Source: an uncultured Eggerthellaceae bacterium
Lineage (GTDB): Bacteria; Actinomycetota; Coriobacteriia; Coriobacteriales; Eggerthellaceae
DNA: 64,000 bases
Assembly: GCA_903789375.1 (NCBI GenBank)
Contig: CAIFEB010000001.1
Coordinates: 1-64,000 of the forward strand
Direction of reading: 5' to 3'
Shown here: positions 10,579 through 29,514 of the stretch, piece by piece
Layout of the letters: each line of letters starts with the position of its first letter
Position numbering within the stretch: the stretch's first letter is position 1
Translations under genes and position numbers: made by a program
Notes under the pieces: model-generated
Databases searched by the model: none
What the model saw: only the letters and a program-made list of their open reading frames with translations
What the model was told of the DNA's origin: nothing

Positions 10579-10690
10579 ATTCCCACTCAATAAGGAATCC
10601 GTTTACCTGGGTTTACTGGCGTTTACCTCAGTAGGTCTTGCCTTCGCACGTGTGGCTGGCTTTCAAAAATGTGGGACCAAATGGGAACCA
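10579..10690. other. Attachment-site relic: guaA-type core plus arm sites
   Basis: ATTCCCACTCAA (10579-10590) is identical to the guaA 3' end. Ninety bases after the start of its TCCCACTC core (10581) comes a pair of arm-like repeats, TGGGACCA (10672-10679) and TGGGAACCA (10682-10690). The same geometry recurs at 14290-14401. It marks an old island boundary between abiE and the nitroreductase cluster. Confidence 0.6.
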
Positions 10691-10720
10691 GCTAGCGGGA
10701 TTAATGCTCCGAACATAGAA

Positions 10721-11374
10721 TTACTCCCATTCGAAGTTTTCCCTGCCAGCGCCCAGCTCGAAGTGATACTTCACGAGCCCGGTGTCGACGCCGGTGAAGA
10801 TGCCGTTGTCGCACTCGATTGCGACCTTGCTGCCGCTGCCGCTGATGGAAAACGCCTGCTTGTTGAGGGCGGTCGGCGCGAGGAGGGCGGCCCCGACACC
10901 GTCCCTGAACCATCGCGGTGCCTCGCCATCATAGGAGGCGACTTCCTCCGGAGCCTTGGATTTGTGGGGCTTGCCCTGGGTCTCGCCGTATCCGACGGCG
11001 ATGATACCGACGGGCTTGGCGTCGCCGGACTTCTCCTGCGCGCCCTTGCGGTTGTAGGTCCCGCCGACCCACCAGGTGTTCAGCCCCAGCATCTGCGCGT
11101 AGAGCATCAGGTCCGCGCCGCAGTAGCCACACAGCTCGTCGGCGCCCTCGGGCCCCGCCATTATGAAGAAGTTTCTCACTCCCTTGGCCAAGACGAGTTT
11201 TACGACGCCCGGAACGGCGCTGGCGTCGTTCGTCATCAGCCTTATGGAGAGCCCATGACGCTCGTTGTGGGTAGCCAGCCGCTCTTCAAGCTTTTTCACC
11301 ATTTCAGCCGGAATAGGCTCATCCGTGTACTTGCGCACCATGTGGCGCTCTCTCATCGCTTGCATCATATCCAT
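10721..11374 (-). CDS. Nitroreductase-family flavoprotein
   Basis: 217 residues, an FMN-dependent oxidoreductase of the nitroreductase superfamily. It shows the N-terminal RHMVRKYTDEPIP motif and the Gly-rich segment YAQMLGLNTWWVGG before LLAPTALNKQAFSI, all typical. The substrate may be a nitroaromatic, quinone or flavin; it cannot be deduced. A strong ribosome binding site (AAGGAGG) precedes ATG 11374. It lies 42 bp after the alpha/beta hydrolase gene on the same strand, with a TetR-type regulator divergent beyond that. The C-terminus ends NFEWE, close to the guaA attachment motif, possibly by chance. Confidence 0.8.
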   Translation of the reverse strand: MDMMQAMRERHMVRKYTDEPIPAEMVKKLEERLATHNERHGLSIRLMTNDASAVPGVVKLVLAKGVRNFFIMAGPEGADELCGYCGADLMLYAQMLGLNTWWVGGTYNRKGAQEKSGDAKPVGIIAVGYGETQGKPHKSKAPEEVASYDGEAPRWFRDGVGAALLAPTALNKQAFSISGSGSKVAIECDNGIFTGVDTGLVKYHFELGAGRENFEWE

Positions 11375-11416
11375 GGCGAACCTCCTTGGTGAATCGATCG
11401 TTCCGACCGTCGAGGG

Positions 11417-12676: not shown

Positions 12677-12844
12677 TTCCGTCTTCCTCTCGCCTCTGAC
12701 AGGGAAGTTGCATCGGGTTCCCTCGTCCAATCGCTGGCCTGATTATGTGCCTCATTAATTTTTGACACCATCGACGGTTATGCGTCTATCGTCTATTAAA
12801 ATACGATTAATTCGAAATCGACCAGCACGAAACAAGGTGTGCAA
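12677..12844. promoter_or_regulatory. Divergent control region of the hydrolase and TetR genes
   Basis: A 168-bp AT-richer gap. TTGACA at 12762-12767 on the plus strand is a possible -35 for the TetR gene. GTCTAT is repeated at 12783-12788 and 12791-12796, a candidate operator. No clean -10 at the best spacing is visible. Confidence 0.4.
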
Positions 12845-14098: not shown

Positions 14099-14133
14099 AA
14101 AGAATAAAAGGCGCAGGTCAACAGGTATATAAG

Positions 14134-14164
14134 AACGGCTCCGAAAGCGATATTCGGAGCCGTT
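14134..14164. terminator. 11-bp perfect hairpin beside the attachment site
   Basis: AACGGCTCCGA (14134-14144) pairs perfectly with TCGGAGCCGTT (14154-14164). It lies between the broken excisionase and the attachment core at 14290. Direction and role are uncertain; it could insulate the island edge. Confidence 0.45.
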
Positions 14165-14289
14165 CGGTGCGTGATTATTCACCTGAAGTTGCTGGTGGCT
14201 TTTGGGTGTTTACGTACCAGATTGGACTTCATGAACCCTGTGGAGCATATTGAGAGCGTGCACAAAACCGCAGGTAAATCCCAAATTTA

Positions 14290-14401
14290 CTCCCACTCAG
14301 TGCAAGCTTTGGTTGATATAGTTGCTTTCAGTTATTTGGAATTCATCCACTTTACCCAGCTGGTTGCAGCTTCACGTGATTTGGGAACCAAATGGGAACC
14401 A
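14290..14401. other. Attachment site (outer edge of the hsd island): core plus arm repeats
   Basis: The core ACTCCCACTCAG (14290-14300) matches the guaA end over TCCCACTCA. Exactly 90 bp after the start of that core (14291), TTGGGAACCA begins, giving TGGGAACCA at 14382-14390 and again at 14393-14401, an 11-bp period. The spacing is identical to that of the site at 10579. The stop of the next gene lies 20 bp away. Confidence 0.65.
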
Positions 14402-14420
14402 CTCATTACGCTAGATGTCT

Positions 14421-15518
14421 TTAACGCTCTAAGGAATATTGCTCACTTAGTAGATTCGGCACATCGGGCAGAGCCGATATTGAATAATCATCGATTGCAG
14501 CATGGATGGCATTCGCCGCATCTCCTTTGAGGCTATGAAATAACATGATGTAGCATGAATTCATACGAGCAAGTTGCTTTAAAGAAGCATCTTCAAGAAC
14601 CGACTCGCTAAGATGCTTGCTAATTAGAACATCTTCTGAATACGTGAAAATAATCTTAACGATAGCTTCTAGCGCTTCATCGTCAGCAAGCAATCTCAAC
14701 TGCCTGGCAAAAGCCCTGTATCTCTTCGCGCGGCTGCTAGCAAACAGCAAAACTACTGTATTCCCCTTGGATGGGAGAACGCAGACGTCCAATGGCTCCA
14801 TTTTATATTTTGGGTTCCGGTTGTAGACGTTATTAATCACCGAGCCCTCGAAATCCGAGATGAGACAGACTCTCTGCTGAAAGGCAAACGGAACGACGTA
14901 TGGCAACACCTTGTAGTACAGAATGCTGTACACATTGGATGGCTTGGCCGATCCTCCTACACGCAACGCAGTTTGCAGCGCTTTCTCGTCCTCCGCAACG
15001 TCTATCGAACGGACATCCATCATCGCGTCGTACATTGCCGGAGATTTATCTCCGAGTACTTTTTGCGACCCAAGCTCCTGCTTCGCCTTGGATATCTCTC
15101 GGAGCAAGTTCTTCGCAGCGATTTGCCCCATCACCTGGGACGAAGGTTCCTGCAGCAACGTTTCCGGCGTTTCATACAACTTGAAAAACTCAGTGTCGCA
15201 CTTACGGCATATTCTTTTAAAAGTTAGTGCCTGGGCGATTCCAACTTCCGTGTCAAGTAAATTCCCGCCCACTAGCGCAGCGTTGGTCAGCAGCTTTCCC
15301 TCTACGGCAATCTCTCGCAAACAGTACTGAGGGATTGTGTGGGAGTTGCAGAACTTTGGATTCTCTTTTCCACAAATGCAGCAAGTATCTGGCTTTGCAC
15401 TTTTCTTTGCGGCTTTGTCGAGATCGGACCTGAACTTCCTGTATCGGATCAGCGTCTCTTCCGGCGCATGAATCGCATTGAAATCCTGTCTGAATGAGGC
15501 TTCATCTTGATCTTCCAT
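14421..15518 (-). CDS. Low-GC Cys/His-rich protein, HNH-nuclease-like zinc site
   Basis: 365 residues, visibly richer in A+T than everything around it. Residues about 46-105 hold CCICGKENPKFCNSHTIPQY and, about 35 residues later, CRKCDTEFF. This C-x2-C...SHxIP...C-x2-C pattern is like the zinc-bound HNH fold of some restriction and homing nucleases, though a full catalytic His-Asn-His triad is not proven. The remainder is helical with no known domain. It lies 13 bp downstream of the double-HTH regulator in one leftward operon. Function unknown; an element-defence or exclusion role is plausible. Confidence 0.6.
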   Translation of the reverse strand: MEDQDEASFRQDFNAIHAPEETLIRYRKFRSDLDKAAKKSAKPDTCCICGKENPKFCNSHTIPQYCLREIAVEGKLLTNAALVGGNLLDTEVGIAQALTFKRICRKCDTEFFKLYETPETLLQEPSSQVMGQIAAKNLLREISKAKQELGSQKVLGDKSPAMYDAMMDVRSIDVAEDEKALQTALRVGGSAKPSNVYSILYYKVLPYVVPFAFQQRVCLISDFEGSVINNVYNRNPKYKMEPLDVCVLPSKGNTVVLLFASSRAKRYRAFARQLRLLADDEALEAIVKIIFTYSEDVLISKHLSESVLEDASLKQLARMNSCYIMLFHSLKGDAANAIHAAIDDYSISALPDVPNLLSEQYSLER

Positions 15519-15531
15519 ATATCCTCACTGT

Positions 15532-16527
15532 CTACTCCTCGTAATGGTCCTGCCAGTACTGGTACGCGTCCGAATCGCCGTTCTCCTGGAAGTCGACGCG
15601 GGCGTAGAACCAATCACCGAAGAGCTTGTCGAGGCTCGGGCGCTTCGGCAAGCCCCCCATGTACATGTCGTTGCGGGTGCATAGCACGATAGCGTCGCCG
15701 ATTCTTCTCGGCGCCAGGTAGTAGATATGCGCCGCCTCCATCAGGAAGTGGAACGCCTCGTTTGGATTGGAGATGCCGAAGTCCGTGAGCGTCTCGACCG
15801 GCACGCCGAGGGCCTTCGCGGTCGCCGCGCGCTGCTCCTCGTTCGGGGCGCGTTTCCCCTGTTCGTAGGCGCGGACGGTGAAAACGCTCGCGCCCGACTT
15901 CTTCGCCAGCTGTCCCTGCGTCATCCCAGCAGCCTTCCTGAGCCGCTTCACGGTCTCGCCGAGCCTCGGCGGACGGTTGGGATAGTCCCCCTCGTCGAAC
16001 GGCGCATCGTAGCCCAGCTCGAACCTCTTCAGGGCCTCCGTGGAGCGATCCGCAGCCGCCTCCCGCTTCGCGCGCTCCTCTTCGCTCAGGCCGTCCTCGC
16101 AGGCAGCGAGGATGGCGTCCCCAATCTCGTCGCTCGCGTCTGCCCACTGTGCCATGGCGTACTCGATGTAGCCGCCGTCGCCCCTGACGCCGAGCACGCC
16201 GTCCCCGAAGTACGGGACGAGGTCGTACGCGCCGGAAATCTGGAACAGGAGCTGCGCGACCACCGCGACCTCGTCGGTTCCCTCCTCGAAAAGGCGGTCC
16301 CTCAGCTGCACCGCGAGAAACGCCGCCTCAGACGCGCCGAGCGCTCTGGCCAGCTTCTCGACCGTCTCCTCTCTGGCGAGGCTCTTGGCCTGCTCGTAAT
16401 TCTGAATCAGCCCGACGTCGACGCCCGATTCCTGGGCCAGCTCGTCCTGCGTCATACCCCCGTTGAGCTCGCGCAGCGCCTTCAACATTCCGGCGAAACC
16501 CCGTCTGCTCGGTTTGGGACTTCCCAT
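15532..16527 (-). CDS. Regulator with two XRE helix-turn-helix domains
   Basis: 331 residues from ATG 16527 behind TAGGAGCGAT. Two separate XRE domains are visible: one at about 10-62 (MTQDELAQESGVDVGLIQNY) and one at about 180-240 (MTQGQLAKKSGASVFTVRAY), linked by an acidic helical region. The C-terminal about 90 residues are of unknown type. It is divergent from excisionase and integrase across a gap with repeated ATCGTATTA motifs, the layout of a lysogeny-type repressor. Two DNA-binding domains in one chain could bridge operators at both promoters. Downstream in the same transcript is the low-GC Cys/His-rich gene. Confidence 0.75.
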   Translation of the reverse strand: MGSPKPSRRGFAGMLKALRELNGGMTQDELAQESGVDVGLIQNYEQAKSLAREETVEKLARALGASEAAFLAVQLRDRLFEEGTDEVAVVAQLLFQISGAYDLVPYFGDGVLGVRGDGGYIEYAMAQWADASDEIGDAILAACEDGLSEEERAKREAAADRSTEALKRFELGYDAPFDEGDYPNRPPRLGETVKRLRKAAGMTQGQLAKKSGASVFTVRAYEQGKRAPNEEQRAATAKALGVPVETLTDFGISNPNEAFHFLMEAAHIYYLAPRRIGDAIVLCTRNDMYMGGLPKRPSLDKLFGDWFYARVDFQENGDSDAYQYWQDHYEE

Positions 16528-16602
16528 ATCGCTCCTATGCCCGTTTCCGAGCCCGCCTGTCACGTGCGGGCGCTTTCAATCACGAATTTTAACCTGGTAA
16601 AA

Positions 16603-16677
16603 ATCGTATTACAACATGTTGACTCGTAAAATACGTACTACTACACTGCAGGTCAGATAGTCGTAAACATCGTATTA
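16603..16677. promoter_or_regulatory. Operator cluster between repressor and excisionase
   Basis: ATCGTATTA is directly repeated at 16603-16611 and 16669-16677, and a small palindrome CGTA-AAA-TACG lies at 16625-16635 between them. The arrangement brackets the predicted rightward promoter at 16619-16647, which suits repression by the divergent double-HTH protein. Confidence 0.5.
16619..16647 (+). promoter_or_regulatory. Promoter of the excisionase-integrase operon
   Basis: TTGACT (16619-16624), 17 bp, TACACT (16642-16647): close to the vegetative consensus. Transcription would start about 16654, some 38 bases before the excisionase start. Confidence 0.6.
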
Positions 16678-16691
16678 GTTAGGAGATGCAC

Positions 16692-16901
16692 ATGGACGAC
16701 TACAGGCTTGTCGGCAAGGACGAGGTCCGCCAGATCCTCGGAGGGTGCTCCGACCAGATGGCCTACCGGGTAATCCGCCAGCTCAACCGGGAGCTCGAGG
16801 AGAGGGGCGTCATCACCGTGCAGGGGAAGGTGAGCCGCAAGTACCTCATCGAGCGCTTCTTCGGCGCAGCGGACGAGGAGGGGGACGGGCAGTGTCAGTG
16901 A
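16692..16901 (+). CDS. Excisionase-like small DNA-binding protein
   Basis: 69 residues. ATG 16692 is preferred to ATG 16686 because the AGGAG ribosome binding site directly abuts the earlier one. The sequence LVGKDEVRQILGGCSDQMAY then RVIRQLNRELEERGVITVQG resembles the short helix-turn-helix excisionase/regulators found immediately before integrases in Gram-positive elements. It overlaps the integrase start by 10 bp. By analogy it should control recombination direction by bending DNA at the attachment site. Confidence 0.65.
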   Translation: MDDYRLVGKDEVRQILGGCSDQMAYRVIRQLNRELEERGVITVQGKVSRKYLIERFFGAADEEGDGQCQ

Positions 16902-17959
16902 AGCAGGACGGGAACGGGACCTGGGAGGTGAGCGCCTGGTACCGCGACTGGCAGGGAAACCGCAAGCGGAAGCACAAGCGCGGGTTCGCCACCAAGCGCG
17001 AGGCCAAGGCGTGGGAGCGATTGTTCCTCGCCCGACAGGAGGGCGCCCCCGACATGACGATGGCCGACTTCTTCGAGATCTACCGCGACGACCGCATGCC
17101 CCATCTGAAGCTCAACACCTGGAGGAGCAAGGAGCAGGTGATCGTCGGCAAGATTCTGCCGTACTTCGGAGAGAAGAAGCTCGACGAGATCACCCCGGCG
17201 GACATCCTCAAGTGGCAGTCGCTGCTCCTCAACCACCGCGACAAGCACGGCAAGGGCTATTCGGACACCTATCTCCGAACAGTGAGCACCCAGCTCTCGA
17301 GCATGTTCAACCACGCCGTGCGCTACTACGGCCTCCCGGCCAACCCCGTGGCCAAGGCGGGCAAGATGGGCAGCGCCAAGGGCGGCGAGATGCGCTTCTG
17401 GACGAAGGACGAGTACGAGCGCTTCTCTCGGGAGGTCATGGACAAGCCGCTCTCCTATCTCGCGTTCGAGGTCCTCTACTGGACCGGAATCCGCGAGGGC
17501 GAGCTTTTGGCGCTGGCGCCCGACGACTTCGACCTGTCGAAGGGGACGCTCTCCATCACCAAGTCCTACCAGCGCATCGACGGCGAGGACGTCGTCACGT
17601 GCCCGAAGACGCCCAAGTCGAACCGGGTGATAGCCATGCCAGACTTCCTGACGGAGGAGGTCGCTGACTACCTCCGCCTCAACGGGACTAGCCCCGACGA
17701 GCGCATGTTCAAGGTCTCGAAGTCGTACCTCTACCACGAGATGGAGCGCGGCAGCAGGGCCGCCGGCGTGAAGCGCATCCGCGTGCACGACCTGCGCCAC
17801 AGCCACGTGTCGCTTCTGATCGAGCTGGGGTTCAACCCGCTCGCCATAGCCGACCGCATGGGGCACGAGAGCGTGGACATCACCCTACGCTACGCGCACC
17901 TGTTCCCGCACGCGCAGGGGCAGATGGCCTCAGCGCTCCAGAAGGAAAGGGGGATATGA
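16892..17959 (+). CDS. int: Tyrosine site-specific integrase
   Basis: 355 residues from GTG 16892 (GAGGAGGGGGACGGGCA upstream; a GTG at 16898 is also possible). It has an N-terminal AP2-like arm-binding domain (WEVSAWYRDWQGNRKRKHKR), a central SAM-like domain (TWRSKEQVIVGKILPYFGEK) and a C-terminal catalytic domain with Arg in TGIREGE, HDLRHSH (His-x2-Arg), the second His in MGHESVDIT and the nucleophile Tyr in RYAHL. All catalytic positions are present. The arm-binding domain would recognise the TGGGAACCA repeats and the catalytic domain the guaA core. Overlaps both neighbours. Confidence 0.9.
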   Translation: MSVKQDGNGTWEVSAWYRDWQGNRKRKHKRGFATKREAKAWERLFLARQEGAPDMTMADFFEIYRDDRMPHLKLNTWRSKEQVIVGKILPYFGEKKLDEITPADILKWQSLLLNHRDKHGKGYSDTYLRTVSTQLSSMFNHAVRYYGLPANPVAKAGKMGSAKGGEMRFWTKDEYERFSREVMDKPLSYLAFEVLYWTGIREGELLALAPDDFDLSKGTLSITKSYQRIDGEDVVTCPKTPKSNRVIAMPDFLTEEVADYLRLNGTSPDERMFKVSKSYLYHEMERGSRAAGVKRIRVHDLRHSHVSLLIELGFNPLAIADRMGHESVDITLRYAHLFPHAQGQMASALQKERGI

Positions 17960-18330
17960 GCATGTCGGAGAAGCTATTGGACCCGCAGGGCCGGCAGCGC
18001 AGCAAGACCATCTCGTTCAGGATGTCGCCCGAGGAGGCCGAGGTCCTCGACAGCCTGGTCGCCGCGAGCGGGATGACCAAGCAGGACTACATCACCAGCT
18101 GCCTCATCGACCACCGGATCACCGTGATTCCCCACACGTGCACCTACAAGGGCCTCTACGACGAGATGGGGCGCGTCTACCGGGAGCTGAGGCGCATCAA
18201 GCGCGACGGCCACGTGAGCGCCGACCTCGAGCGGATCATCGGGGCGCTCGCGGAGGAGTTCTCCGGGCTCGGGGGCGAGCTGTCCGAGGTGGAGAAGGAA
18301 GACGCCGCCGTCCGCGCGCTGAGACGCTGA
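17956..18330 (+). CDS. MobC-like ribbon-helix-helix protein
   Basis: 124 residues, overlapping the integrase stop by 4 bp (ATGA). The N-terminal half (RSKTISFRMSPEEAEVLDSL, then SGMTKQDYITSCLIDHRITV) matches the ribbon-helix-helix region of MobC-type relaxosome accessory proteins. The C-terminal half is an acidic helix (GGELSEVEKEDAAV). MobC proteins help a relaxase open DNA at oriT; since no relaxase is coded here, it would have to work with a helper element's relaxase, or it serves as a regulator. Confidence 0.6.
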   Translation: MSMSEKLLDPQGRQRSKTISFRMSPEEAEVLDSLVAASGMTKQDYITSCLIDHRITVIPHTCTYKGLYDEMGRVYRELRRIKRDGHVSADLERIIGALAEEFSGLGGELSEVEKEDAAVRALRR

Positions 18331-18425
18331 CGGCGGCGCCAGGTAAACGGGCGCCGGGAGTCCCTGGAAAAGATTGCCCGGCGCCCAGGAAGGCCAGTCT
18401 ATCACTGGTGGAAAGGAGGGCATCG

Positions 18426-18644
18426 ATGCCTTCTCGCAACAGCTACTTCAACAAGCTGGTAGACAGGAACAGGTCGATGGCGGAGCACGGCTTCGACCAT
18501 TTCCCCGACGAAGGGGAGCTGTTCGACTACCTGATAGAGACGAACGACAAGGTCGACCTCCTGGCGGAAAGCCTGGGGGTGCGGATCGAGAAGGACGCGC
18601 GCGGGCGGCTCCGCGCCGCGCCCGGAAGGGAGTACATGCGATGA
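18426..18644 (+). CDS. Hypothetical 72-residue island protein
   Basis: ATG 18426 follows GGAAAGGAGGGCATCG, a strong ribosome binding site. The product is charged and helical (NSYFNKLVDRNRSMAEHGFD, then ELFDYLIETNDKVDLLAESL). No recognised domain. It overlaps the RepA-like gene by 4 bp (ATGA), so it is likely an accessory factor made with it. Small genes in this position in mobilizable elements often modulate replication. Confidence 0.6.
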   Translation: MPSRNSYFNKLVDRNRSMAEHGFDHFPDEGELFDYLIETNDKVDLLAESLGVRIEKDARGRLRAAPGREYMR

Positions 18645-19612
18645 GGAAGCTGGAGACGGTGGATGCGCAGTGGCTTATCCAGCAGCCCTTCACGAGCCCC
18701 GCATGGGTGATCGAGGACCTGCTCACCGCCGGGCTTTCGCTCCTGGTCGGCTCGCCTAAGTCGGGAAAGAGCTGGATGGCCCTGAAGATGGCCCTCTGCG
18801 TGAGCACGGGAACCCCGTTCTGGGACCTGGAGACGCACGAGTGCGACGTCCTCTACCTCTGCCTCGAGGACACCAAGAGCCGCGTGCAGCAGAGGCTCTG
18901 GAAGCTCACCGACGAGGCGAGCCCGAGGCTCCACATCGCCACCGCTGCCGACAAGATCACGGGGGACCTCATCCCCCAGCTGCAGGACTTCGCAGAAGAG
19001 CACCCTGACACACGCATGGTCATCGTCGACACGCTGCAGATGGCGAGGAAGGCGTCGGGCGACAATGCCTACGCCGCCGACTACAGCGACATGAACGCTC
19101 TGAAGAGGTTCGCCGACGAGCGCGGCATCGCTGTGCTGTGCATCCACCACAGCCGCAAGATGGGCGATTCGGACGTCTTCAACACGGTGAGCGGGACCAA
19201 CGGCATCACGGGCGCCGCCGACTGCACCATGGTGCTCAGCAACCTCAACCGCAGCGCGCACAGGGCGACGCTCTCCGTCACCGGAAGGGACGTCGAGTTC
19301 CAGGAGTACAAAATCCGGATGAACGACTGCGTATGGGAGCTGATCGAGAAGACCAGCAGGGAGGAACTCGAGGAACGCGAGGTGCCCGACGACGTCCTGC
19401 GGGTCCTGGACTTCATGATGACGCGCCCCATCGACTGGCAGGGAACGACCACGGAGCTCTACACGCAGGTCGGCCTGGAGACCGTGAGCGTGCCGGCCTT
19501 CGGCAAGCACCTCGCCCAGAACAGGGACTTCTTGGAGGACCGGGGAATCGCGTTCGAGAGAACGCGCACCCGTGAGGGAAGCATCATCAGCCTCTGCAGG
19601 ACCGACGGATGA
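18641..19612 (+). CDS. RepA-like AAA/RecA-fold ATPase
   Basis: 323 residues. Walker A GSPKSGKS (37-44), Walker B MVIVDTLQ and sensor region CIHHSRK are typical of the RepA/DnaB-like hexameric helicase family (AAA_25), found in plasmids, integrative elements and phage satellites. The C-terminal about 80 residues look like a winged helix (YTQVGLETVSVPAFGKHLAQ). It probably unwinds the excised element for replication, using the repeat region immediately downstream as origin. No primase domain is present. Confidence 0.75.
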   Translation: MRKLETVDAQWLIQQPFTSPAWVIEDLLTAGLSLLVGSPKSGKSWMALKMALCVSTGTPFWDLETHECDVLYLCLEDTKSRVQQRLWKLTDEASPRLHIATAADKITGDLIPQLQDFAEEHPDTRMVIVDTLQMARKASGDNAYAADYSDMNALKRFADERGIAVLCIHHSRKMGDSDVFNTVSGTNGITGAADCTMVLSNLNRSAHRATLSVTGRDVEFQEYKIRMNDCVWELIEKTSREELEEREVPDDVLRVLDFMMTRPIDWQGTTTELYTQVGLETVSVPAFGKHLAQNRDFLEDRGIAFERTRTREGSIISLCRTDG

Positions 19613-19832
19613 TGTGGCACATGTGGCAGGAGTGGCAGCATCCGAGGGATACGGGGATGCGCTGCCACATCTGTCACAGCTGCAACGGCTCTCACCCTCA
19701 CTCGGCGCCCAGCGCGACGAGAGAAATGAATCAGCCAGGTTTAGCGGAAACGGCAAACGCACCACTCAGAAGCGCCGCTAGCAAGCAGCCTAACCTGTGC
19801 GCACAGCGCTCATATCAGGTGCCCGCCGTGTT

Positions 19833-20110: not shown

Positions 20111-20206
20111 GCCCCTGGGATCGAATCTCAGCTGCGAGCTAATGCCCATACATGAAACTTTATGTAAAATGTGAGCATGTCTAAACCGCCCGAAAGGTGA
20201 TCAGCC

Positions 20207-20392: not shown

Positions 20393-22755
20393 GCGGAACC
20401 TACGACTACTCATTCGTGAAGATGAACGAGGAGGACACGAAGCTGAAGCTCATCACGCCCGCCGTCGAGAAGGCCGGGTGGAGCAAGATGAGGCAGATGT
20501 TCTGCGAGTACTCCTACACCGACGGGGAGATCATCGTCCGGGGCAAGATGACGACGCGCGGCAAGCGCAAGAAGGTCGACTACCTCCTCATGCACCAGCG
20601 CGACGTCCCCATCGCGGTCATCGAGGCCAAGGACACGCAGCACACGGTCGGGGCGGGCATGCAGCAGGGCATTGGTTACGCCGCGGACCTGCGCGTCCCT
20701 TTCGTCTACAGCTCGAACGGCAAGGGCTTCCTCGAGCACGACATGATGACGGGGGCCGAGAGGCAGCTCCCCATGGACCGGTTCCCGAGCCCGTCCGAGC
20801 TGTGGGCGCGTTACTCGAGGCAGGACGGTCTCACCGGCGAGGGCGAGGAGATTGTCGAGGCCCCCTACTACCACGACTACGGCTCCCTGACGCCGCGCTA
20901 CTACCAGCGAAACGCCGTCAACGAGGCGATCCGGGCAATCGCGCACGGCCAGCGCCGCATCCTGCTCGTCATGGCGACGGGCACCGGAAAGACGTTCACC
21001 GCGTTCCAGCTGGTGCACCGCCTCCGCGAGAGCGGCGCGGTGCGCAAGGTGCTCTACCTCGCAGACCGCAACGTCCTCGTCGACCAGACCATCACCGGCG
21101 ACTTCAAGCCCCTGGAGAAGGTGACCACGAAGGTAAAGGGCCGCACGCTCGACAGCGCCTACGAGGTGTACTTCAGCCTCTACCAGCAGCTCGTGGGCGA
21201 GGACGGCGAGGAGATATTCCGCGCCTTCGACCCGTCGTTCTTCGACCTCGTCATCGTGGACGAGTGCCACCGGGGCTCGGCCAAGGCGGACTCTGCCTGG
21301 CGCAAGATCCTCGAGTACTTCGGCGGCGCCATACAGATCGGCATGACCGCCACCCCCAAGGAAACCGAGGAGGTCTCCACCATCGACTACTTCGGCGAGC
21401 CGGTCTACACCTACAGCCTCAAGCAGGGCATCGAGGACGGCTTCCTCGCCCCCTACAAGGTCATCCGGCCGAAGCTCGACATCGACGTCTACGGCTGGCG
21501 GCCGGCGAAGGGCCAGCTCGACGACAACGGGGAGCCAATCGAGGACCGCGTGTACTCCATCACCGACTTCGACCGCGACATCGTCGTGAGGGAGCGCACG
21601 GAGACCGTCGCCGCCAAGGTCACGGAGTTCCTGAAGGGCACCGACCGCTACGCCAAGACCATCGTGTTCTGCGTCGACATCGACCACGCGGAGCGCATGC
21701 GGCAGGCGCTGGTCAACTGCAACAAGGACATCGTCAGGGACCACCCGACCTACGTCATGCGCATCACCGGCGACAGCGCCGAGGGCAAGGCGCAGCTAGA
21801 CAACTTCATGGACCCGGACGAGAAGCACCCGACCATCGTCACCACCTCGAAGCTGCTCACCACGGGGGTCAACTGCAAGACCTGCAAGGTCATCGTCCTC
21901 GACAACCTCTTCGGCGAGCAGGGCATGACCGAGTTCAAGCAGATCATCGGTCGCGGTACCCGCATCAAGGAGGACTACGGGAAGCTGTACTTCACCATCC
22001 TCGACTTCCGCAACGCGAGCCGGCTCTTCGCCGACCCCGCCTTCGACGGCGAGCCGGTGCAGATCTACGAGCCGCCCGAGGAGGCCCCCATCGTCCCGCC
22101 TGACGAGCCGGACAATTGGCAGGAGCCCGAGGGGGCCTCGCCGGACTTCAGCCCCGAGGGAGATGGCGGCTCCGACGACGCCGGCGGCGACCGCGTCAAG
22201 TACTACGTGCACGGCGTCCCGGTCACCGTGGTCTCGGAGCGCGTCGAGTACTACTCGGACGACGGCGGACTGGTCACCGAGAGCCTCAAGGACTACACGC
22301 GCAGGAACATCCTCGGCCAGTACGACTCCCTCGACCACTTCCTCAAGGCGTGGAACGAGGGGGACCGCAAGCAGGCCATCATCGACGCCCTGCGCGACGA
22401 GGGCGTCTTCCTGGATGCGCTGCGCGAGGAATCTGGCCAGGAGCAGATGAGCGACTTCGACCTCATCTGCCACATCGCCTACGACCAGAAGCCCCTCACG
22501 CGCTCCGAGCGCGCGAACAACGTGAAAAAGAAGGGCTACCTCTACGAGTACAACGAGGTGGCGCGGCGCGTGCTCGATACGCTGCTGGACAAATACGCCA
22601 ACTCAAACCTCGTCGACCTCGCGGACACCCATATCCTCGATCTCGAGGAGTTCCAGGAGTTCGGCAGCCCCATGCGCATCGTGAAGGCGTTCGGTGGCAA
22701 GAAGAAGTACCTCGAGGCCGTGCACGAGCTCGAGCGAGAGCTCTACTCCGCCTAG
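20389..22755 (+). CDS. hsdR: Type I restriction enzyme, R (translocase/nuclease) subunit
   Basis: 788 residues. The N-terminal PD-(D/E)xK nuclease has Asp64, then IEAK (78-81) and QxxxY (93-97). Walker A ATGTGKT (196-202), DECH box (291-294), the TATP motif and QIIGRGTR near the end of the second RecA fold make up the SF2 translocase. The C-terminal about 180 residues bind the methylase. HsdR pulls DNA towards the HsdMS complex and cuts unmethylated DNA at a distance. All motifs are intact. Translation is coupled to the Phd gene, so the antitoxin level is tied to nuclease synthesis. Confidence 0.92.
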   Translation: MSGTYDYSFVKMNEEDTKLKLITPAVEKAGWSKMRQMFCEYSYTDGEIIVRGKMTTRGKRKKVDYLLMHQRDVPIAVIEAKDTQHTVGAGMQQGIGYAADLRVPFVYSSNGKGFLEHDMMTGAERQLPMDRFPSPSELWARYSRQDGLTGEGEEIVEAPYYHDYGSLTPRYYQRNAVNEAIRAIAHGQRRILLVMATGTGKTFTAFQLVHRLRESGAVRKVLYLADRNVLVDQTITGDFKPLEKVTTKVKGRTLDSAYEVYFSLYQQLVGEDGEEIFRAFDPSFFDLVIVDECHRGSAKADSAWRKILEYFGGAIQIGMTATPKETEEVSTIDYFGEPVYTYSLKQGIEDGFLAPYKVIRPKLDIDVYGWRPAKGQLDDNGEPIEDRVYSITDFDRDIVVRERTETVAAKVTEFLKGTDRYAKTIVFCVDIDHAERMRQALVNCNKDIVRDHPTYVMRITGDSAEGKAQLDNFMDPDEKHPTIVTTSKLLTTGVNCKTCKVIVLDNLFGEQGMTEFKQIIGRGTRIKEDYGKLYFTILDFRNASRLFADPAFDGEPVQIYEPPEEAPIVPPDEPDNWQEPEGASPDFSPEGDGGSDDAGGDRVKYYVHGVPVTVVSERVEYYSDDGGLVTESLKDYTRRNILGQYDSLDHFLKAWNEGDRKQAIIDALRDEGVFLDALREESGQEQMSDFDLICHIAYDQKPLTRSERANNVKKKGYLYEYNEVARRVLDTLLDKYANSNLVDLADTHILDLEEFQEFGSPMRIVKAFGGKKKYLEAVHELERELYSA

Positions 22756-22776
22756 GAATCGATAAGGAGAATTTGA

Positions 22777-24255
22777 ATGGCACTTGGCACCCTGGTCAAG
22801 ACCCTGCAGAACATCATGCGCAAGGACGCCGGCATCAACGGCGACGCGCAGCGCATCGAGCAGATGACGTGGATGTTCTTCCTCAAGGTCTACGACGCCA
22901 AGGAGGAGGAGTGGGAGTTTCACGACGACTCCTACGAATCCGTGATTCCCGAAGAGCTGCGCTGGCACAGCTGGGCGGTGGATTCCAAGGACGGAAAGGC
23001 GCCCACCGGCCCCGAGCTCCTCGACTTCGTGAACAACAGGCTGTTCCCCGGTCTGGCTAGTCTCGACCTGCCAGAGGGAGCTCCGCTGTCCCAGGTCGTC
23101 GTGAGGCAGGCGTTCACGGACGCCAACAACTACATGAAGGACGGCGTCCTGCTGCGCCAGGTGGTCAACGCGATCGACGACGCGGTCGACTTCACGGAGT
23201 ACAAGGAGCGCCACGCCTTCGGCGAGATCTACGAGACGATCCTCAAGGACCTGCAGAGCGCCGGCAACGCGGGCGAGTTCTACACGCCCCGCGCCGTCAC
23301 CGACTTCATGGCCAAGATGCTCGACCCCAAGCTGGGCGAGAGCGTCGCGGACTTCGCGTGCGGAACCGGCGGCTTTCTCACCTCGGCGCTCAAGCTCCTC
23401 GAGGCCCAGGTGGAGACGCCCGCCGACCGCGAGGTCTACTCCCAGAGCGTCTACGGCATGGAGAAGAAGCAGCTGCCCTACCTTCTGTGCGTCACCAACA
23501 TGCTGCTCCACGACATCGACCAGCCCAAGATCTTCCACGGAAACTCGCTCGACCGCGACGTACGCGAGTACCGGCACGAGCCCGACGGCCTCTTCGACGT
23601 GGTGCTCATGAACCCGCCCTACGGGGGAAGCGAGAACGACGCCATCAAGAACAACTTCCCCGTGGCGCTGCGCAGCTCCGAGACCGCGGACCTCTTCCTC
23701 GCGCTCATCCTCTACCGGCTGAAGGAGCACGGCCGCGCGGCGGTCATCATCCCCGACGGCTTCCTTTTCGGCACCGACGGGGCGAAGCTCGAGATCAAGC
23801 GGCGCCTGTTGGAAGAGGCGAACCTGCACACCGTCGTGCGCATGCCCCAGAGCGTGTTCGCACCCTACACCTCCATCACCACCAACATCCTGTTCTTCGA
23901 GAACAACGGGCCCTCCGAAGGCGTGTGGTTCTACCGCATGGACATGCCGGAAGGCTACAAGCACTTCTCCAAGACCAAGCCCATCAGGCTGGAGCACTTC
24001 GACCCCGTAATCGAGTGGTGGAACGACCGCAAGAAAATCGAGGAGGATGGCCACCCCAAGGCACATTTCTACACTCCAGAGGAGCTGAAGGAACGCGGCT
24101 ACAATTTCGACCTTTGCGGCTACCCGCATGACGAAGAGGAGATTCTGCCGCCCGACGAGCTCATCAAGAGCTACAAGGCGGAGCGCGAGCGACTCGACGC
24201 GGAAATCGACGCCAAGCTAGGCGAGATTTGCAGCATCCTCGGAATCGAGCTGTAG
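22777..24255 (+). CDS. hsdM: Type I modification methylase, M subunit
   Basis: 492 residues. N-terminal helical HsdM domain (LVKTLQNIMRKDAGINGDAQ) followed by an N6-adenine methyltransferase with AdoMet motif FACGTGGF (193-200) and catalytic NPPYGG (279-284). It forms M2S with HsdS and methylates the two half-sites of the recognition sequence, protecting host DNA. Good ribosome binding site (ATAAGGAGAATTTGA). Separated from hsdS by one base, a normal operon junction. Confidence 0.93.
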   Translation: MALGTLVKTLQNIMRKDAGINGDAQRIEQMTWMFFLKVYDAKEEEWEFHDDSYESVIPEELRWHSWAVDSKDGKAPTGPELLDFVNNRLFPGLASLDLPEGAPLSQVVVRQAFTDANNYMKDGVLLRQVVNAIDDAVDFTEYKERHAFGEIYETILKDLQSAGNAGEFYTPRAVTDFMAKMLDPKLGESVADFACGTGGFLTSALKLLEAQVETPADREVYSQSVYGMEKKQLPYLLCVTNMLLHDIDQPKIFHGNSLDRDVREYRHEPDGLFDVVLMNPPYGGSENDAIKNNFPVALRSSETADLFLALILYRLKEHGRAAVIIPDGFLFGTDGAKLEIKRRLLEEANLHTVVRMPQSVFAPYTSITTNILFFENNGPSEGVWFYRMDMPEGYKHFSKTKPIRLEHFDPVIEWWNDRKKIEEDGHPKAHFYTPEELKERGYNFDLCGYPHDEEEILPPDELIKSYKAERERLDAEIDAKLGEICSILGIEL

Positions 24256-24256
24256 C

Positions 24257-25852
24257 ATGAAGGCACAGGACTTGAAGAACTCCATCCTCCAACTGGCCGT
24301 GCAGGGCAAGCTGGTGCCGCAGGATCCCTCCGACGAGCCTGCGAACGAGCTGCTCGAGCGCATCCGCGAGGAATGCGCGGAGCTCATCGAGCAGAAGAAG
24401 ATCAAGAAGCCCAAGGGCGGAGAGTCGGTCATCTACCGGGGTTCCGATGGGTCCCGCTATGAGAAGCGCGTGGACGCGAAGGGCCACGAGAGTGAGCCGA
24501 TCTGCATCGACGACGAGATCCCGTTCGAGATTCCCGAGGGCTGGGAATGGGCCCGGCTGTCCTCTGTCTGCGTTAAGCTTACCGATGGGTCGCATAATCC
24601 TCCGCCAAAAGCGGTCAATGGTTATCCCGTGATAAGCGCGATGAGCATCGATGGCCGATCAATCAACCTGAACCGCATTAGTCGCTTTGCCGATCGGTCT
24701 GGCTTCGAAAAAGAGAATCCCCGAACGAGGATCAAACGCGGCGACATAATTCTAGGCATTATCGGCGGGTCAATCGGCAATGTTGCGATTTTCGATTACG
24801 ATGAAGCTGTAATTGCTCAACGAAGCGTCGCCATAATCGATTGCGGCGCTCTTAACGAGTATGTCTCCTTCGCGCTGGAGAGCCCCCTTTTCTTTGGATA
24901 CTACAAAAATGCTGCAGGTACAGCCCAGGGCGGAATATATCTTGGGGCATTGGGAGACATGCTTGTACCCATCCCGCCCCTTACTGAACAGCGCCGCATC
25001 GTCGCCAAGGTCGACGAGCTCATGCCGCTGGTCGAGGAGTACGGCGAGCTCGAGGACGCCCGCGAGGCCCTGGACGCCGCGCTGCCCGACCGCCTGCGCA
25101 AATCCGTGCTGCAGCTTGCTGTCGAGGGTAAGCTGGTGCCCCAGGACCCCTCCGACGAGCCCGCAAGTGAGCTGCTCGGGCGCATCCGGAAGGAGCGCGC
25201 CGAGCTCATCGAACAGAGGAAAATCAGGAGGCCCAAGGGTGGCGAGTCGGTCATCTACCGCAAAGGCGGGAGCTGGTACGAGCGCCGCGGCAAATCCGAA
25301 CCCGTCTGCATCGACGACGAGATCCCCTTCGACATCCCGGAGAGCTGGGAGTGGTGCAGGCTATGCGGCCTTGCGGCATTTTCAGGTGGGAAGACCCCAT
25401 CCACTGATGACAAATCCAATTACGAGGAAAACGGCATTCTATGGGTTACTTCCAAAGACATGAAGCGTGATTACATCGACAGCACTCTTATCACGCTATC
25501 TGAGAAGGGGGCCTCTGAACTCACTAGATACAAACCCGGTACGATTTTAATGGTCACGCGGAGCGGGATTTTGAGGCGCATGCTGCCAGTAGCGATGCTG
25601 AAGAGGAGCGCTACGGTTAACCAGGACCAGAAGGCAATCTGTCCCTTTGACTACCGTCTTAGCGAATGGCTACTGCGCTTCTTCAAAGCGAGCGATAGTT
25701 ATATAAGGTCAAACTTTTCAAAAGCGGGAACAACAGTTGAAAGTGTTGTCTTTGACAAGGTCAAGTCTATGCCAATTCCCATCCCTCCCCTCGAAGAGCA
25801 GAAACGCATCGTCGAAAGAGTCGACCAGATAATGAAACTGATAGGAGCCTAG
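24257..25852 (+). CDS. hsdS: Type I specificity subunit with two target-recognition domains
   Basis: 531 residues. Two copies of a conserved segment (LQLAVQGKLVPQDPSDEPAN near 11 and LQLAVEGKLVPQDPSDEPAS near 285, each running to SWEWxRL or GWEWxRL) frame two different recognition domains of about 150 residues (roughly 100-245 and 370-510), each closing with IPPLxEQxRIV. The recognition domains are clearly lower in GC than the repeats, as expected from domain swapping. The subunit defines a bipartite target; the target cannot be read from sequence. No frameshift. Confidence 0.9.
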   Translation: MKAQDLKNSILQLAVQGKLVPQDPSDEPANELLERIREECAELIEQKKIKKPKGGESVIYRGSDGSRYEKRVDAKGHESEPICIDDEIPFEIPEGWEWARLSSVCVKLTDGSHNPPPKAVNGYPVISAMSIDGRSINLNRISRFADRSGFEKENPRTRIKRGDIILGIIGGSIGNVAIFDYDEAVIAQRSVAIIDCGALNEYVSFALESPLFFGYYKNAAGTAQGGIYLGALGDMLVPIPPLTEQRRIVAKVDELMPLVEEYGELEDAREALDAALPDRLRKSVLQLAVEGKLVPQDPSDEPASELLGRIRKERAELIEQRKIRRPKGGESVIYRKGGSWYERRGKSEPVCIDDEIPFDIPESWEWCRLCGLAAFSGGKTPSTDDKSNYEENGILWVTSKDMKRDYIDSTLITLSEKGASELTRYKPGTILMVTRSGILRRMLPVAMLKRSATVNQDQKAICPFDYRLSEWLLRFFKASDSYIRSNFSKAGTTVESVVFDKVKSMPIPIPPLEEQKRIVERVDQIMKLIGA

Positions 25853-25855
25853 CGC

Positions 25856-27634
25856 ATGGGCAAGGAACTGTTCGACAACATCCCCAGCAAGGTCGAGGAC
25901 CTACTCCGCGCCGTGGAGCTGGGGAAAATCGGCCTCCCCGATCTGCAGAGGCCCTTTGTCTGGCCCGACAGCAAGGTGAGGAACCTCCTCGACTCGATGC
26001 TGAAGGGCTATCCCATCGGCTACATCATGCTCTGGTCGTCGCCGGACGAATACGGCAACACCAAGCAGATCGGCGGCAACGAGAAGACCTACAAGGAGCC
26101 CGACGACCTGGTCATCGACGGCCAGCAGAGACTCACGGCCCTGCTGGCCGCGCTCCATGGGACAAGGGTCCGGGACAAGAACTACCGGGAGCGTCCGATA
26201 AGAATCTCGTTCAACCCGCTCACCAGGGAGTTCGCTGTCTGGACTCAGGCGTTCGAGAGGAACACGGAGTGGATCAGCTCCGTGAGCTCGGTGTTCGAGG
26301 CGGACAGGGACCACTCCGTGTCGAAGTTCCGCAAGGCCTTCATCAGGCAGGCCAACGAGGGGCGGGAGAGGAACGGCAGGCACGCTCTGACCGACGAGGA
26401 GGAGGACCTGATCGAGGAGAACCTCAACGACCTCCTCAACCTGGGGATATACACGCTCCCAACGTTGAAGATCAACTCGAAAGCCGACGAGGAGGACGTG
26501 GCGGAGATCTTCGTGCGCGTGAACTCCGGCGGGACCAAGCTCACCGAGAAGAACTTCATCGAGACCCTGCTGGCGGTGTTCGACAACGACGTTCACGCGC
26601 GCATAGACAGGTTCTGCGCGGAGTCCCGCGTGCCGAAGGACGGGACCGCCTACAACCAGATCATCGAAGTCGACCCGTCGCACCTAATCAGGATTGCCGT
26701 CGGCGTCGGGTTCAGGCGCGCCCGTCTCAAGTACGCCTACATGCTCCTGAGGGGCAAGGATCTGAAGACCGGGGCCACCTCGGCCAAGACGCGCGAGGAG
26801 AACCTCGGAAAGTTCAAGGCCGCCCTCGACCTCGCCCTTAACCTTAACAACTGGCACTCCTTTCTCAACCTGTTCGGCAAGGCGGGATACCTAAGAGGGA
26901 GCATCGTCGCCTCGACCAACGCGGTGGTATTCAGCTACGTCCTGTACCTCATCGGCAAGTACGACTACAAAGTGCCGCCGTTCGAGCTGAACAAGATCAT
27001 CACCAAGTGGATCTTCATGGCCACCATAACCGGTTTCTACACCGGATCGACCGAGTCTGAGGTCGAGAAGCAGTTCGCCGATCTGCGGGAGGTGACAACG
27101 GCGGAAGGCTTCGTGTCCTACCTGGAATCCGCCATCGCGACCAGGTTCACGGACGACTTCTTCGCATACACCCTGCCGAGCAGCCTCGAGGGTTCGTCGG
27201 CAAACTCGCCGTCGTGGTTCGGCTACGTCGCCTCGCTCATCGTTCTGGGCACGCCTATGCTGTTCAGCACGACGCCGCTTGCCCAGTACTTCGCCATCGG
27301 CACGAGCGGGAAGAAGAACGCCATCGACAAGCACCATATCTTCCCGAAGAATTACCTGACGAAGATAGGCTACGACAACGACCGCGAAAGAAACCAGATA
27401 GCCAACTTCACATACCTCGACTACAACACCAACATCGAGATCGGCGACAAGGCCCCAGCCGAATACGTCTCCGCTTACAGGCAAAAGCTCGGCGAAGAGG
27501 GATATGCGAAATCCTGCAGGGACAATGCACTCCCCCTCGATTTCGAGAACCTCGGATACCCGGACTTCCTCGCTCAAAGAAGGACGCTCATGGCAGGCGT
27601 CGTGAAGAAGGCATACGAAAAGCTTTGTGAGTAA
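25856..27634 (+). CDS. Full-length DUF262-HNH protein (GmrSD-like)
   Basis: 592 residues. DUF262 domain: LPDLQRPFVW (27-36) and IDGQQRLT (87-94). Residues about 490-525 carry DKHHIFPKNYL and, about 20 residues on, an Asn in a YLDYNTNIEIGDKAP segment, an HNH/DUF1524-type nuclease. Such proteins are NTP-dependent type IV enzymes that cut modified DNA. It starts 3 bp after hsdS, so it is made with the type I enzyme: one module cuts unmodified DNA and the other would cut modified phage DNA. It is the full-length counterpart of the truncated DUF262 genes at 1.7-3.8 kb but only distantly similar. Confidence 0.8.
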   Translation: MGKELFDNIPSKVEDLLRAVELGKIGLPDLQRPFVWPDSKVRNLLDSMLKGYPIGYIMLWSSPDEYGNTKQIGGNEKTYKEPDDLVIDGQQRLTALLAALHGTRVRDKNYRERPIRISFNPLTREFAVWTQAFERNTEWISSVSSVFEADRDHSVSKFRKAFIRQANEGRERNGRHALTDEEEDLIEENLNDLLNLGIYTLPTLKINSKADEEDVAEIFVRVNSGGTKLTEKNFIETLLAVFDNDVHARIDRFCAESRVPKDGTAYNQIIEVDPSHLIRIAVGVGFRRARLKYAYMLLRGKDLKTGATSAKTREENLGKFKAALDLALNLNNWHSFLNLFGKAGYLRGSIVASTNAVVFSYVLYLIGKYDYKVPPFELNKIITKWIFMATITGFYTGSTESEVEKQFADLREVTTAEGFVSYLESAIATRFTDDFFAYTLPSSLEGSSANSPSWFGYVASLIVLGTPMLFSTTPLAQYFAIGTSGKKNAIDKHHIFPKNYLTKIGYDNDRERNQIANFTYLDYNTNIEIGDKAPAEYVSAYRQKLGEEGYAKSCRDNALPLDFENLGYPDFLAQRRTLMAGVVKKAYEKLCE

Positions 27635-27659
27635 TGCTTAAAGTCTGTTGCCCCGTTTC

Positions 27660-27688
27660 TGGTTCCCAGTTTCCATAGCTGGTTCCCA
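27660..27688. other. Arm-site pair at the guaA-proximal island end
   Basis: TGGTTCCCA occurs at 27660-27668 and 27680-27688, the inverted form of TGGGAACCA seen at 14382-14401 and 10682-10690. Opposite orientation at opposite ends, inside the cores, is what paired integrase arm sites look like. Confidence 0.6.
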
Positions 27689-27762
27689 AACGGTTCCGAA
27701 ATAGGCCAAAGAGCCGGGAGCACCATAAGGACGCGGGCGCACGCACGCGCACCCAAACAAGG

Positions 27763-27803
27763 AAGCGGCTAGGTAGAGACGTTCATCCACCTAGCCGCTT
27801 TCG
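27763..27803 (+). terminator. Terminator of the restriction operon
   Basis: A 12-bp perfect stem AAGCGGCTAGGT/ACCTAGCCGCTT (27763-27774, 27789-27800) followed by TTTCG. It lies 129 bp past the DUF262-HNH stop; the rest of 27635-27921 carries arm sites and no gene. Confidence 0.65.
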
Positions 27804-27921
27804 CTATCTGAACTGCAGTTATCAGCCTGCTTGCCCTTGTCCTGCAAAAGCTGATGCCATTGCAGAGCGCCTAGAAGCAGCTCGAATCAAGTAGGACAAC
27901 CGATACACTTTTTACTGCATA

Positions 27922-29514
27922 TCATTCCCACTCAATCGTCGCGGGCGGCTTGGACGTGATGTCGTACGCCACGCGGTTCACGCCGGGAACCTCGGCCACG
28001 ATGCGGCTCGAGATGCGAGCGAGCACCTCGTAGGGGAGTTTCGCCCAGTCGGCCGTCATAGCGTCGGAGCTCTCAACGGCGCGCACGATGATGGGCCGCG
28101 CGTATGTGCGCTCGTCGCCCATGACGCCCACGCTTCTGATGTCGGGCAGCACGGCGAAGTACTGCCAGCAGCTGTGGGCGCTGTTGCGCTCGCCGGTCTC
28201 CTCGAACAGCTTCGCGTTGTACGCGTCAAGCTCCTCGCGCACGATGGCGTCGGCGTTCTTCAGGATGCCAAGCTTTTCGGGCGTCACCGATCCGATGATG
28301 CGAATGGCAAGCCCCGGGCCGGGGAAGGGCTGGCGGTAGACGATGTGGTCGGGCAGGCCGAGCGCCGTGCCAAGCGCGCGCACCTCGTCCTTGAAGAAGT
28401 GGTCGAGCGGCTCGATCAAATCGAAGCTCACGCCGTCGGGGAACGGGATCAGGTTGTGATGGCTCTTGATGGTGGATGCCTTGCCGCCGGTCTTGCGCGC
28501 GCCCGACTCGATGATGTCGGGGTAGATGGTGCCCTGGGCCAGGTACTTCACGCCGTCGAGCTTCTGCGCCACGGCGAAGAACTCCTTCCAGAACTGCGTG
28601 CCGATGATCTGGCGCTTGCGCTCGGGCTCCGTCACGCCGTCGAGCAGCTTCGCGTAGCGCTCCGCGGCGTGCACGTGGATGAAGTCGACGTCGAACTGCT
28701 TGGTGAATACCTCTTCGACCTGCTCGGGCTCGTCTTTGCGCAGCATGCCGTGGTTCACGAACACGCAGGTCACCTGCTTGCCGATGGCGCGGCTCATCAA
28801 CGCCGCGACGACGCTCGAATCAACGCCGCCCGAAAGCGCCAAGATCACGCGGTCGTCTCCGACCTTCTGGCGGATGGCGGACACCATGCGCTCGACTAGG
28901 TTGTCCATCGACCAGTCAGCCTCAAGACCGCAGATCTTGAACAGGAAGTTGGACAGCATGTCGTTTCCGTTGGGGGTGTGGCGCACCTCGGGGTGGAACT
29001 GCGTGGCGTAGAGCTTGCGCTCGGGGCATTCCATCGAGGCAACGGGGCACACGTCGGTATGCGAAGTGACGACGAATCCCGCGGGAACCTCGGACACGGC
29101 GTCGCGATGGCTCATCCACACGGTCTGCTCGTCGGGCGTGCCGTCGAGCAGCTGGCTTTCGCCTTGGCGGGTGAGCGGGGCGGGGCCGTATTCGCCCTTC
29201 TCGGTGTGGCCGACGGTGCCGCCGAGAGTGACGGCCATGATCTGCTGGCCGTAACAGAACCCGAGCACCGGCACGCCCAACTCGAGCACACCCGGGTCGA
29301 TCTTCGGGGCGTCCTCTGCGTACACGCTGGCCGGGCCGCCTGAAAGGATGACGGCCGACGGCTTCAGCGCGGCGAGCTCGTCGGCCGAGATGTCGCAGGG
29401 GACGATCTCCGAATAGACGTGCAGGTCGCGCACGCGACGTGCGATGAGCTGGCCGTACTGGGCGCCGAAGTCCAAGACGACGACCTTCTGGTCGGAAGTG
29501 GCGGTGGTGTTCAC
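27922..29514 (-). CDS. guaA: GMP synthase (glutamine-hydrolysing)
   Basis: 530 residues from GTG 29514, chosen because AAAGGGA lies 7 bp upstream; ATG 29538 has no ribosome binding site. Converts XMP, ATP and glutamine to GMP. The class I glutamine amidotransferase domain has Cys87 (FCYGQQ) and His174/Glu176 (FHPEV); the ATP-pyrophosphatase loop is LSGGVDSS (about 227-234), followed by the dimerisation domain ending TIEWE. Length is normal. Its last codons are the attachment site for the islands to the left. Confidence 0.97.
   Translation of the reverse strand: MNTTATSDQKVVVLDFGAQYGQLIARRVRDLHVYSEIVPCDISADELAALKPSAVILSGGPASVYAEDAPKIDPGVLELGVPVLGFCYGQQIMAVTLGGTVGHTEKGEYGPAPLTRQGESQLLDGTPDEQTVWMSHRDAVSEVPAGFVVTSHTDVCPVASMECPERKLYATQFHPEVRHTPNGNDMLSNFLFKICGLEADWSMDNLVERMVSAIRQKVGDDRVILALSGGVDSSVVAALMSRAIGKQVTCVFVNHGMLRKDEPEQVEEVFTKQFDVDFIHVHAAERYAKLLDGVTEPERKRQIIGTQFWKEFFAVAQKLDGVKYLAQGTIYPDIIESGARKTGGKASTIKSHHNLIPFPDGVSFDLIEPLDHFFKDEVRALGTALGLPDHIVYRQPFPGPGLAIRIIGSVTPEKLGILKNADAIVREELDAYNAKLFEETGERNSAHSCWQYFAVLPDIRSVGVMGDERTYARPIIVRAVESSDAMTADWAKLPYEVLARISSRIVAEVPGVNRVAYDITSKPPATIEWE
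27924..27940. other. Attachment core in the guaA 3' end
   Basis: ATTCCCACTCAATCGTC encodes the last codons of GuaA (TIEWE) on the minus strand and is repeated, with changes, at 7244, 10579 and 14290. The gene stays intact because the island restores the terminal codons. Confidence 0.65.

Follow-up and report, generated by a model that had tools for sequence, protein, structure and literature searches.

The stretch of DNA analysed here, 64 kb from a gut actinobacterium and called the window below, carries guaA, the essential gene for GMP synthase, on the minus strand at 27922..29538. This open reading frame is up to 87% identical in relatives and encodes a protein that ends in ...ATIEWE-stop; its 3' end is the integration target. 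Here lies the guaA-proximal attachment site, core 0 (ATTCCCACTCAAT, 27924..27936, + strand), found by exact match and by a consensus scan. Further out follow core 1 (ACTCCCACTCAGT, 14289..14301, + strand), core 2 (ATTCCCACTCAAT, 10579..10591, + strand, again found by exact match and consensus scan) and core 3 (ATTCCCACTCGAT, or ATCGAGTGGGAATAG on the guaA strand; 7244..7256, + strand, from the consensus scan).

The innermost element, A2 (14291..27936), is an integrase-bearing island with type I restriction-modification cargo, recognised by its two ends and by a backbone that it has in common with an element in the genome G074 (G074:C56); core 1 is its outer junction. Its guaA-proximal end (27660..27933, + strand) aligns with the right end of the G074 element and consists of inverted arms, TGGTTCCCA, at 27660 and 27680, a hairpin and a conserved TACACTTTTTACTGCATATCATTCCCACTC that abuts the core. 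Inwards from core 1, A2 encodes a cargo protein of unassigned function, without Pfam or PADLOC match (14421..15518, - strand), a double helix-turn-helix regulator of the conserved backbone (15532..16563, - strand; 55-56% in G074 and G157), a tyrosine recombinase with an arm-binding domain (16745..17959, + strand; PF14657, PF14659 and PF00589), which probably starts at about residue 52 and whose homologues adjoin guaA, a NikA/MobC-like ribbon-helix-helix mobilisation accessory protein (17956..18330, + strand; PF21983, E=1.9e-13) and an AAA_25 (RepA-like) ATPase, also a conserved backbone gene (18374..19612, + strand; PF13481; 76% in G074). The remaining cargo is a type I restriction-modification operon, hsdR-hsdM-hsdS (20197..25852, + strand; PADLOC REase_I, MTase_I and Specificity_I), and a GmrSD_N/DUF262 protein (25856..27634, + strand; PF03235, HEC-05-like). 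Two internal repeats of hsdS, 24278-24438 and 25100-25260, are 82% identical, reflecting the two-domain architecture that is usual for this subunit, and specificity could be altered if they recombined.

Among the large open reading frames of 14291-27926 neither a relaxase nor another transfer-origin processing gene was found, the NikA/MobC-like accessory protein being the only mobilisation-related match, and no type IV secretion family was seen in the same set. Because these reading frames include no relaxase gene, A2 is not classed as a proven IME; IMEs without a relaxase are described (PMC5704250). A scan of viral contigs for the A2 integrase gave no match, and a phage origin finds no support there.

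Between cores 1 and 2 lies a chimeric middle block. Its inner side is the guaA-proximal end of a second element type, B (14103..14299, - strand), and its outer side is an arm pair, TGGGACCA-AA-TGGGAACCA (10672..10690, + strand), the outer end of an older A-type element, A1. The cargo consists of a TM1586-type nitroreductase (10721-11374, - strand), an FrsA-like hydrolase (11417-12730, - strand) and a TetR-like regulator (12839-13387, + strand). Core 2 bounds the guaA side of an abiE module (8765..10591, - strand; PADLOC AbiEi at 9794-10552 and AbiEii at 8910-9797), whose genes (8910-10552) lie between the cores at 10581 and 7246, and core 3 sits at the outer end of a third element type, C (7241..7549, + strand), homologous to one end in G119 and one in G001. 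The stack reaches at least to 7246 and probably runs on to window base 1, where the contig ends. Past core 3, the outermost one detected, are two adjacent GmrSD_N (DUF262) genes (1716-4028) that resemble the defence-associated Orf5/HEC-06 and are probably island cargo too. Further out, at 226-328, an azaaromatic (yjdF) riboswitch matches Rfam with 55.7 bits. The segment around it, 207-386, has copies of 77-94% identity in the guaA-downstream DNA of G011 (twice), G062, G102, G152 and G150, so the gene under riboswitch control may be common guaA-island cargo.

Attachment cores and arm sites

In an exact search of the window, TCCCACTCA has exactly three matches, all on the + strand, at 10581, 14291 and 27926, where shuffled sequences have 0.25 on average and none of 100 shuffles reached three. 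This threefold recurrence of the guaA 3' core had been pointed out in an earlier note on this DNA, with 27927 for the last position. The arm sequence TGGGAACCA has five exact matches (10682+, 14382+, 14393+, 27660- and 27680-; about 0.23 expected in the window), all at core junctions, and TGGGACCA has its single match in the window at 10672. At core 1 the arms form the pair TGGGAACCA-AA-TGGGAACCA (14382..14401, + strand). From core start to first arm start, the distance is 91 bp at both 10581 and 14291, with the second arm at +101 and +102, respectively. The equal spacing reported before is therefore real, its value being 91 bp from start to start and not 90, and the DNA that separates core and arms differs, as was also said, between the two junctions; the two inverted arm copies at the guaA-proximal end were found again by exact search. 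With up to three mismatches allowed, the arm pair occurs at these two places only in the 2.43 Mb genome, and nowhere in the reversed control.

A scan with the consensus GATYGAGTGGGARTR gives two perfect matches (15/15), the guaA copy and the one at 7244-7256, followed by 10581 (14/15) and 14291 (13/15). The displaced copy that comes closest in sequence to the guaA end is a fourth core. It was overlooked at first, because the ninth base, after TCCCACTC, differs; the three junctions then proposed are real, and abiE, which falls outside the interval first given for the stack, lies between two junctions and hence inside it. All four cores (27926, 14291, 10581 and 7246) have a single orientation and still encode Glu-Trp-Glu-stop, core 1 having lost the Ile codon (ACT in place of ATT).

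Two core-like sequences were rejected as junctions. The one at 8915 is the stop-codon end of abiEii and lies within an unbroken 93% block common to G001; the one at 10728 is where the nitroreductase gene ends with its stop codon, and no breakpoint supports it.

Relatives of the innermost element

The closest relative of the A2 integrase, 76% identical, is encoded in G074:C56 (JAQXTF010000056.1, an Eggerthellales MAG), where the backbone genes are kept (regulator 55%, ATPase 76%) and the cargo is different. The outer end there has a core with arms at +92 and +103, and the inner end shares with A2 the TACACTTTTTACTG--TAT-ATTCCCACTC sequence, the hairpin and the inverted arms. This inner-end signature was found in 5 of 399 genomes of the order and not at all with a reversed-pattern control. 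The window and G157 have it beside guaA; its neighbours in G074, G083 and G011 are other sequences. G157, from another family, has a 5.35 kb element at guaA with both A ends and no integrase, in which the regulator and hsdS are retained. The expectation that the cores would accompany this integrase in other islands was borne out by G074, and they are present in integrase-less relatives such as G157 as well.

Five intact outer ends, from four genomes and two families, have distances of 91, 91, 92, 91 and 91 bp between core and first arm. Because of this constancy, the identical distance at the two window junctions is best explained as an attachment-site geometry that is conserved within one recombinase family. 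The relatives of A2 in other genera have the same ends and the 91-92 bp geometry, with differing neighbours beyond the core. In many genomes, from Coriobacteriia and from Clostridia, integrase homologues closely follow the core of guaA or of a guaA-like gene; those in Clostridia MAGs, 52-57% identical, lie just beyond such genes, with the core mostly at the gene end.

The G157 element (L190/L191, 14788-19746 of the reversed joined stretch) also encodes a large P-loop ATPase-like protein. Its hsdS, possibly cut at the N-terminus, has no hsdR or hsdM match beside it and is possibly a mobile orphan specificity subunit.

Homology breaks at cores

Alignment of the guaA-downstream regions of relatives, a check proposed in the earlier note, places the homology breakpoints at the cores. 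The abiE block (8765-10591) is 93.1% identical over 1,827 bp to G001, a genome from another genus (guaA+28595-30420), and in each of the two genomes the core is where the match begins; on its guaA side follows an A-type end in the window and a C-type end in G001. At the B end, 14103-14299 matches G001 13895-14089 with 78%, starting at the core, and 14101-14243 matches G001 11038-11178 with 73%, so that the B end resembles the ends at two stacked G001 cores. At the C end, 7241-7549 is 73% identical to G119 11618-11926, a match that stops within 3 bp of the G119 core. These homology edges indicate that modules are exchanged as core-bounded blocks. In no relative examined do the 10.6 and 14.3 kb sequences follow guaA in this order; G001 has both the abiE block and the 14.1-14.3 kb end, but in other neighbourhoods.

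The ends of the 10581-14291 block do not match, being of A type outside and of B type inside, and at least one junction must therefore have been reworked by deletion or recombination. The most plausible reading of the block is that it is left over from two elements, which would have been fused by deletion. Because it is a chimera of two element types, the circle predicted from 10579/14290 is doubtful. In G157, an integrase-less element has both attachment ends; the window block, joining an A end to a B end, is no clean CIME. The outer segments of the stack, without recognisable integrase, are probably decayed or cis-mobilisable remnants.

The whole region could also be a single large composite that was inserted once at guaA, its internal cores having travelled along after stacking in another host. 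CIME-ICE tandems are described as being transferred as whole composites (PMC5704250), and the window gives no relative dates for the insertions. However, the abiE block is 93% identical to G001, where for the neighbouring B and C ends the identity to other genomes is only 71-78%, in differing combinations, and because of this the modules do not have a single history in common. Even in a composite, the internal cores would record serial insertion, if elsewhere. I consider the composite an unlikely, if conceivable, substitute for repeated insertion at guaA itself.

Occupied and empty sites

In two genomes of one genus, the same ion-channel gene is located 1.9 kb past guaA (G098) and 36.7 kb past guaA, beyond the stack (G001). 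The site in G098 is only near-empty, as a 1.5 kb segment separates guaA from the ion-channel gene; this segment is also present in G054, where no guaA was found. The genomes compared, which included no same-species strain, gave no exact empty site for the stack of the window. The congeners of G157 gave no empty site either: additional cores are present in G156, and in G158 an integrase homologue lies near guaA. A search of the window's genome for the G098 ion-channel gene gave no homologue, so the far flank could not be joined to the stack. Window positions 1-128 match the DNA right after guaA in G098 and were considered as chromosomal flank, a candidate weakened by the fact that the gene concerned belongs to the 1.5 kb segment also found in G054. 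A tRNA as integration target has no support either, since neither window 1-32000 nor the scanned stretches of six relatives contain a tRNA gene.

Displaced guaA tails

The survey comprised 93 guaA-downstream regions (from the family of the window, and from G157) plus one G100 stack contig, 1.53 Mb altogether. With the guaA end itself excluded, GAGTGGGA is present in 65 copies on the guaA strand, and in 48 of these a purine and a stop codon come next; the opposite strand has 18 copies, none of them with such a tail (0/18). The codon that precedes the displaced GAGTGGGA is mostly Ile or Val, as in guaA. The 48 copies are displaced guaA tails, Ile/Val-Glu-Trp-Glu-stop. Displaced tails occur in 17 of the 55 regions that are 15 kb or longer; another 18 lack such a tail but have an integrase within 4 kb, and the remaining 20 show neither feature. 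In G011 a ladder of cores in the same orientation spans more than 60 kb. Stacking at guaA is common in this bacterial family, and counting displaced tails gives a simple readout of insertion history that needs the sequence only.

These numbers also bear on the possibility that the present order arose by homologous recombination or deletion between the repeated cores, without integrase action. Junctions do get reworked, as the chimeric 10581-14291 block and a second, coreless A end in G100 indicate. However, the conserved arm spacing and the strict orientation (48 vs 0) are marks of site-specific recombination, and the cores, with only 9-15 bp, are too short for efficient RecA recombination, which makes this explanation very improbable. 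That the cores are chance or coding similarities, from genes that happen to end in Glu-Trp-Glu-stop, is hardly credible and for the four main cores already refuted: even though 8915 and 10728 are best read as such coding look-alikes, the tail follows 48 of the 65 copies in guaA orientation and 0 of the 18 on the opposite strand, homology breaks at the cores, and the arm pair is found only there.

Discussion

The region downstream of guaA is very probably a stack of genomic islands that arose by repeated site-specific recombination. Serial insertion of related elements at the guaA 3' end, as suggested in the earlier note, is supported by the relatives, by the homology edges at the cores and by the orientation bias of the displaced tails. 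In the mechanism I propose, the tyrosine recombinase would bind arms about 91 bp from the core at the outer end and 245 bp at the inner end, the core would be the sequence common to the last guaA codons, and the attP of a putative circular form of the element would recombine with the core at the guaA 3' end. A new Glu-Trp-Glu-stop tail would come with the incoming element and leave guaA intact, while the old tail would be pushed outwards to become the outer junction of the element. Repeated rounds would then produce the ladder of cores at 27926, 14291, 10581 and 7246 between elements of at least three types: A2, with integrase, NikA-like protein, RepA-like ATPase and type I restriction-modification system; a chimeric remnant with nitroreductase and hydrolase, B-type inside and A-type outside; and the abiE module, followed by a type-C end. 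This polarity and order of insertion are those that the model predicts; the integrase of A2 may act on the outer cores as well, and transfer may proceed through a helper conjugative system.

As far as the accounts of Song et al. 2012 (in PMC7775301) and PMC9376610 go, guaA islands such as GIsul2 and ICERspD18B have GAGTGGGA at the guaA 3' end as their published core; target and 8-bp core are the same as for the stack in the window. In the GIsul2 strain three att sites are present behind guaA, and the integrase was shown to excise the whole island and the inner CR2-sul2 unit separately (PMC9376610). Islands at guaA are described as often having P4-type integrases and AlpA. The stack in the window likewise has a direct repeat containing GAGTGGGA at the guaA 3' end and a site-specific recombinase within the element. 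However, GIsul2 and ICERspD18B come from Proteobacteria, whereas the element here has a coriobacterial host, an Arm-DNA-bind_4 integrase and mainly defence cargo. Tn5801-like elements of Gram-positive bacteria also insert at the guaA 3' end by means of a tyrosine recombinase; their direct repeat is 11 bp long (PMC4844618). Tn5801 is a Tn916-like, putatively conjugative element with tet(M), whereas the large open reading frames of the window element include neither conjugation genes nor a relaxase.

Accretion is known from other targets. In CIMEs of the ICESt1 type, decayed elements still have their two attachment sites, and newcomers enter at the one that borders the target gene; tandem accretion with cis-mobilisable remnants has been reviewed (both PMC5704250). 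The window has adjoining elements, four direct-repeat cores in the same orientation and homology edges at the cores, but target, hosts and cargo differ from the ICESt1-type CIME/IME systems, and cis-mobilisation is only putative here. The islands at ssrA in Dehalococcoides, where many direct repeats occur up to 100 kb from one target gene and some islands have no integration module (PMC3146451), resemble the stack in accumulating at one gene with integrase-less members included. They differ from it in having a serine recombinase, a tmRNA target and reductive dehalogenase cargo, as opposed to a tyrosine recombinase, guaA and defence cargo. This locus is a well-documented example of a known process, the tandem accretion of genomic islands, in which decayed elements without integrase take part. 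A limited literature search found no paper on guaA stacks in relatives of Eggerthella, which is weak evidence of absence.

With these observations, the ends of a guaA island family from little-studied gut bacteria are precisely defined, and the guaA site is linked to the dissemination of restriction-modification, AbiE and further defence genes. A more speculative idea, which I regard as possible but doubtful, is that the guaA 3' end of Coriobacteriia serves as an open-ended dock for cassettes. These would be short modules bounded by cores, many of them with defence genes and without an integrase of their own, which guaA integrases acting in trans would reshuffle between genera, and each displaced tail would be a countable record of one insertion.

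Many Coriobacteriia have a second guaA-like gene in addition to full-length guaA, which may be a second docking site. In the loci L082, L083, L123, L124, L126 and L129, a shorter guaA-like gene with a core-like sequence at its end adjoins integrase homologues; its similarity to GuaA, with 45-52% identity, is confined to the C-terminal part (about residue 213 onwards, or 159 onwards in L083). A second core-like copy, the imperfect GAATGGGAGTAA, is found at about position 338 (guaA orientation) in L068, L070, L094, L100 and L111. It sits 246 bp within the inner end of another common guaA element, at about the distance of the inverted arms in the element of the window.
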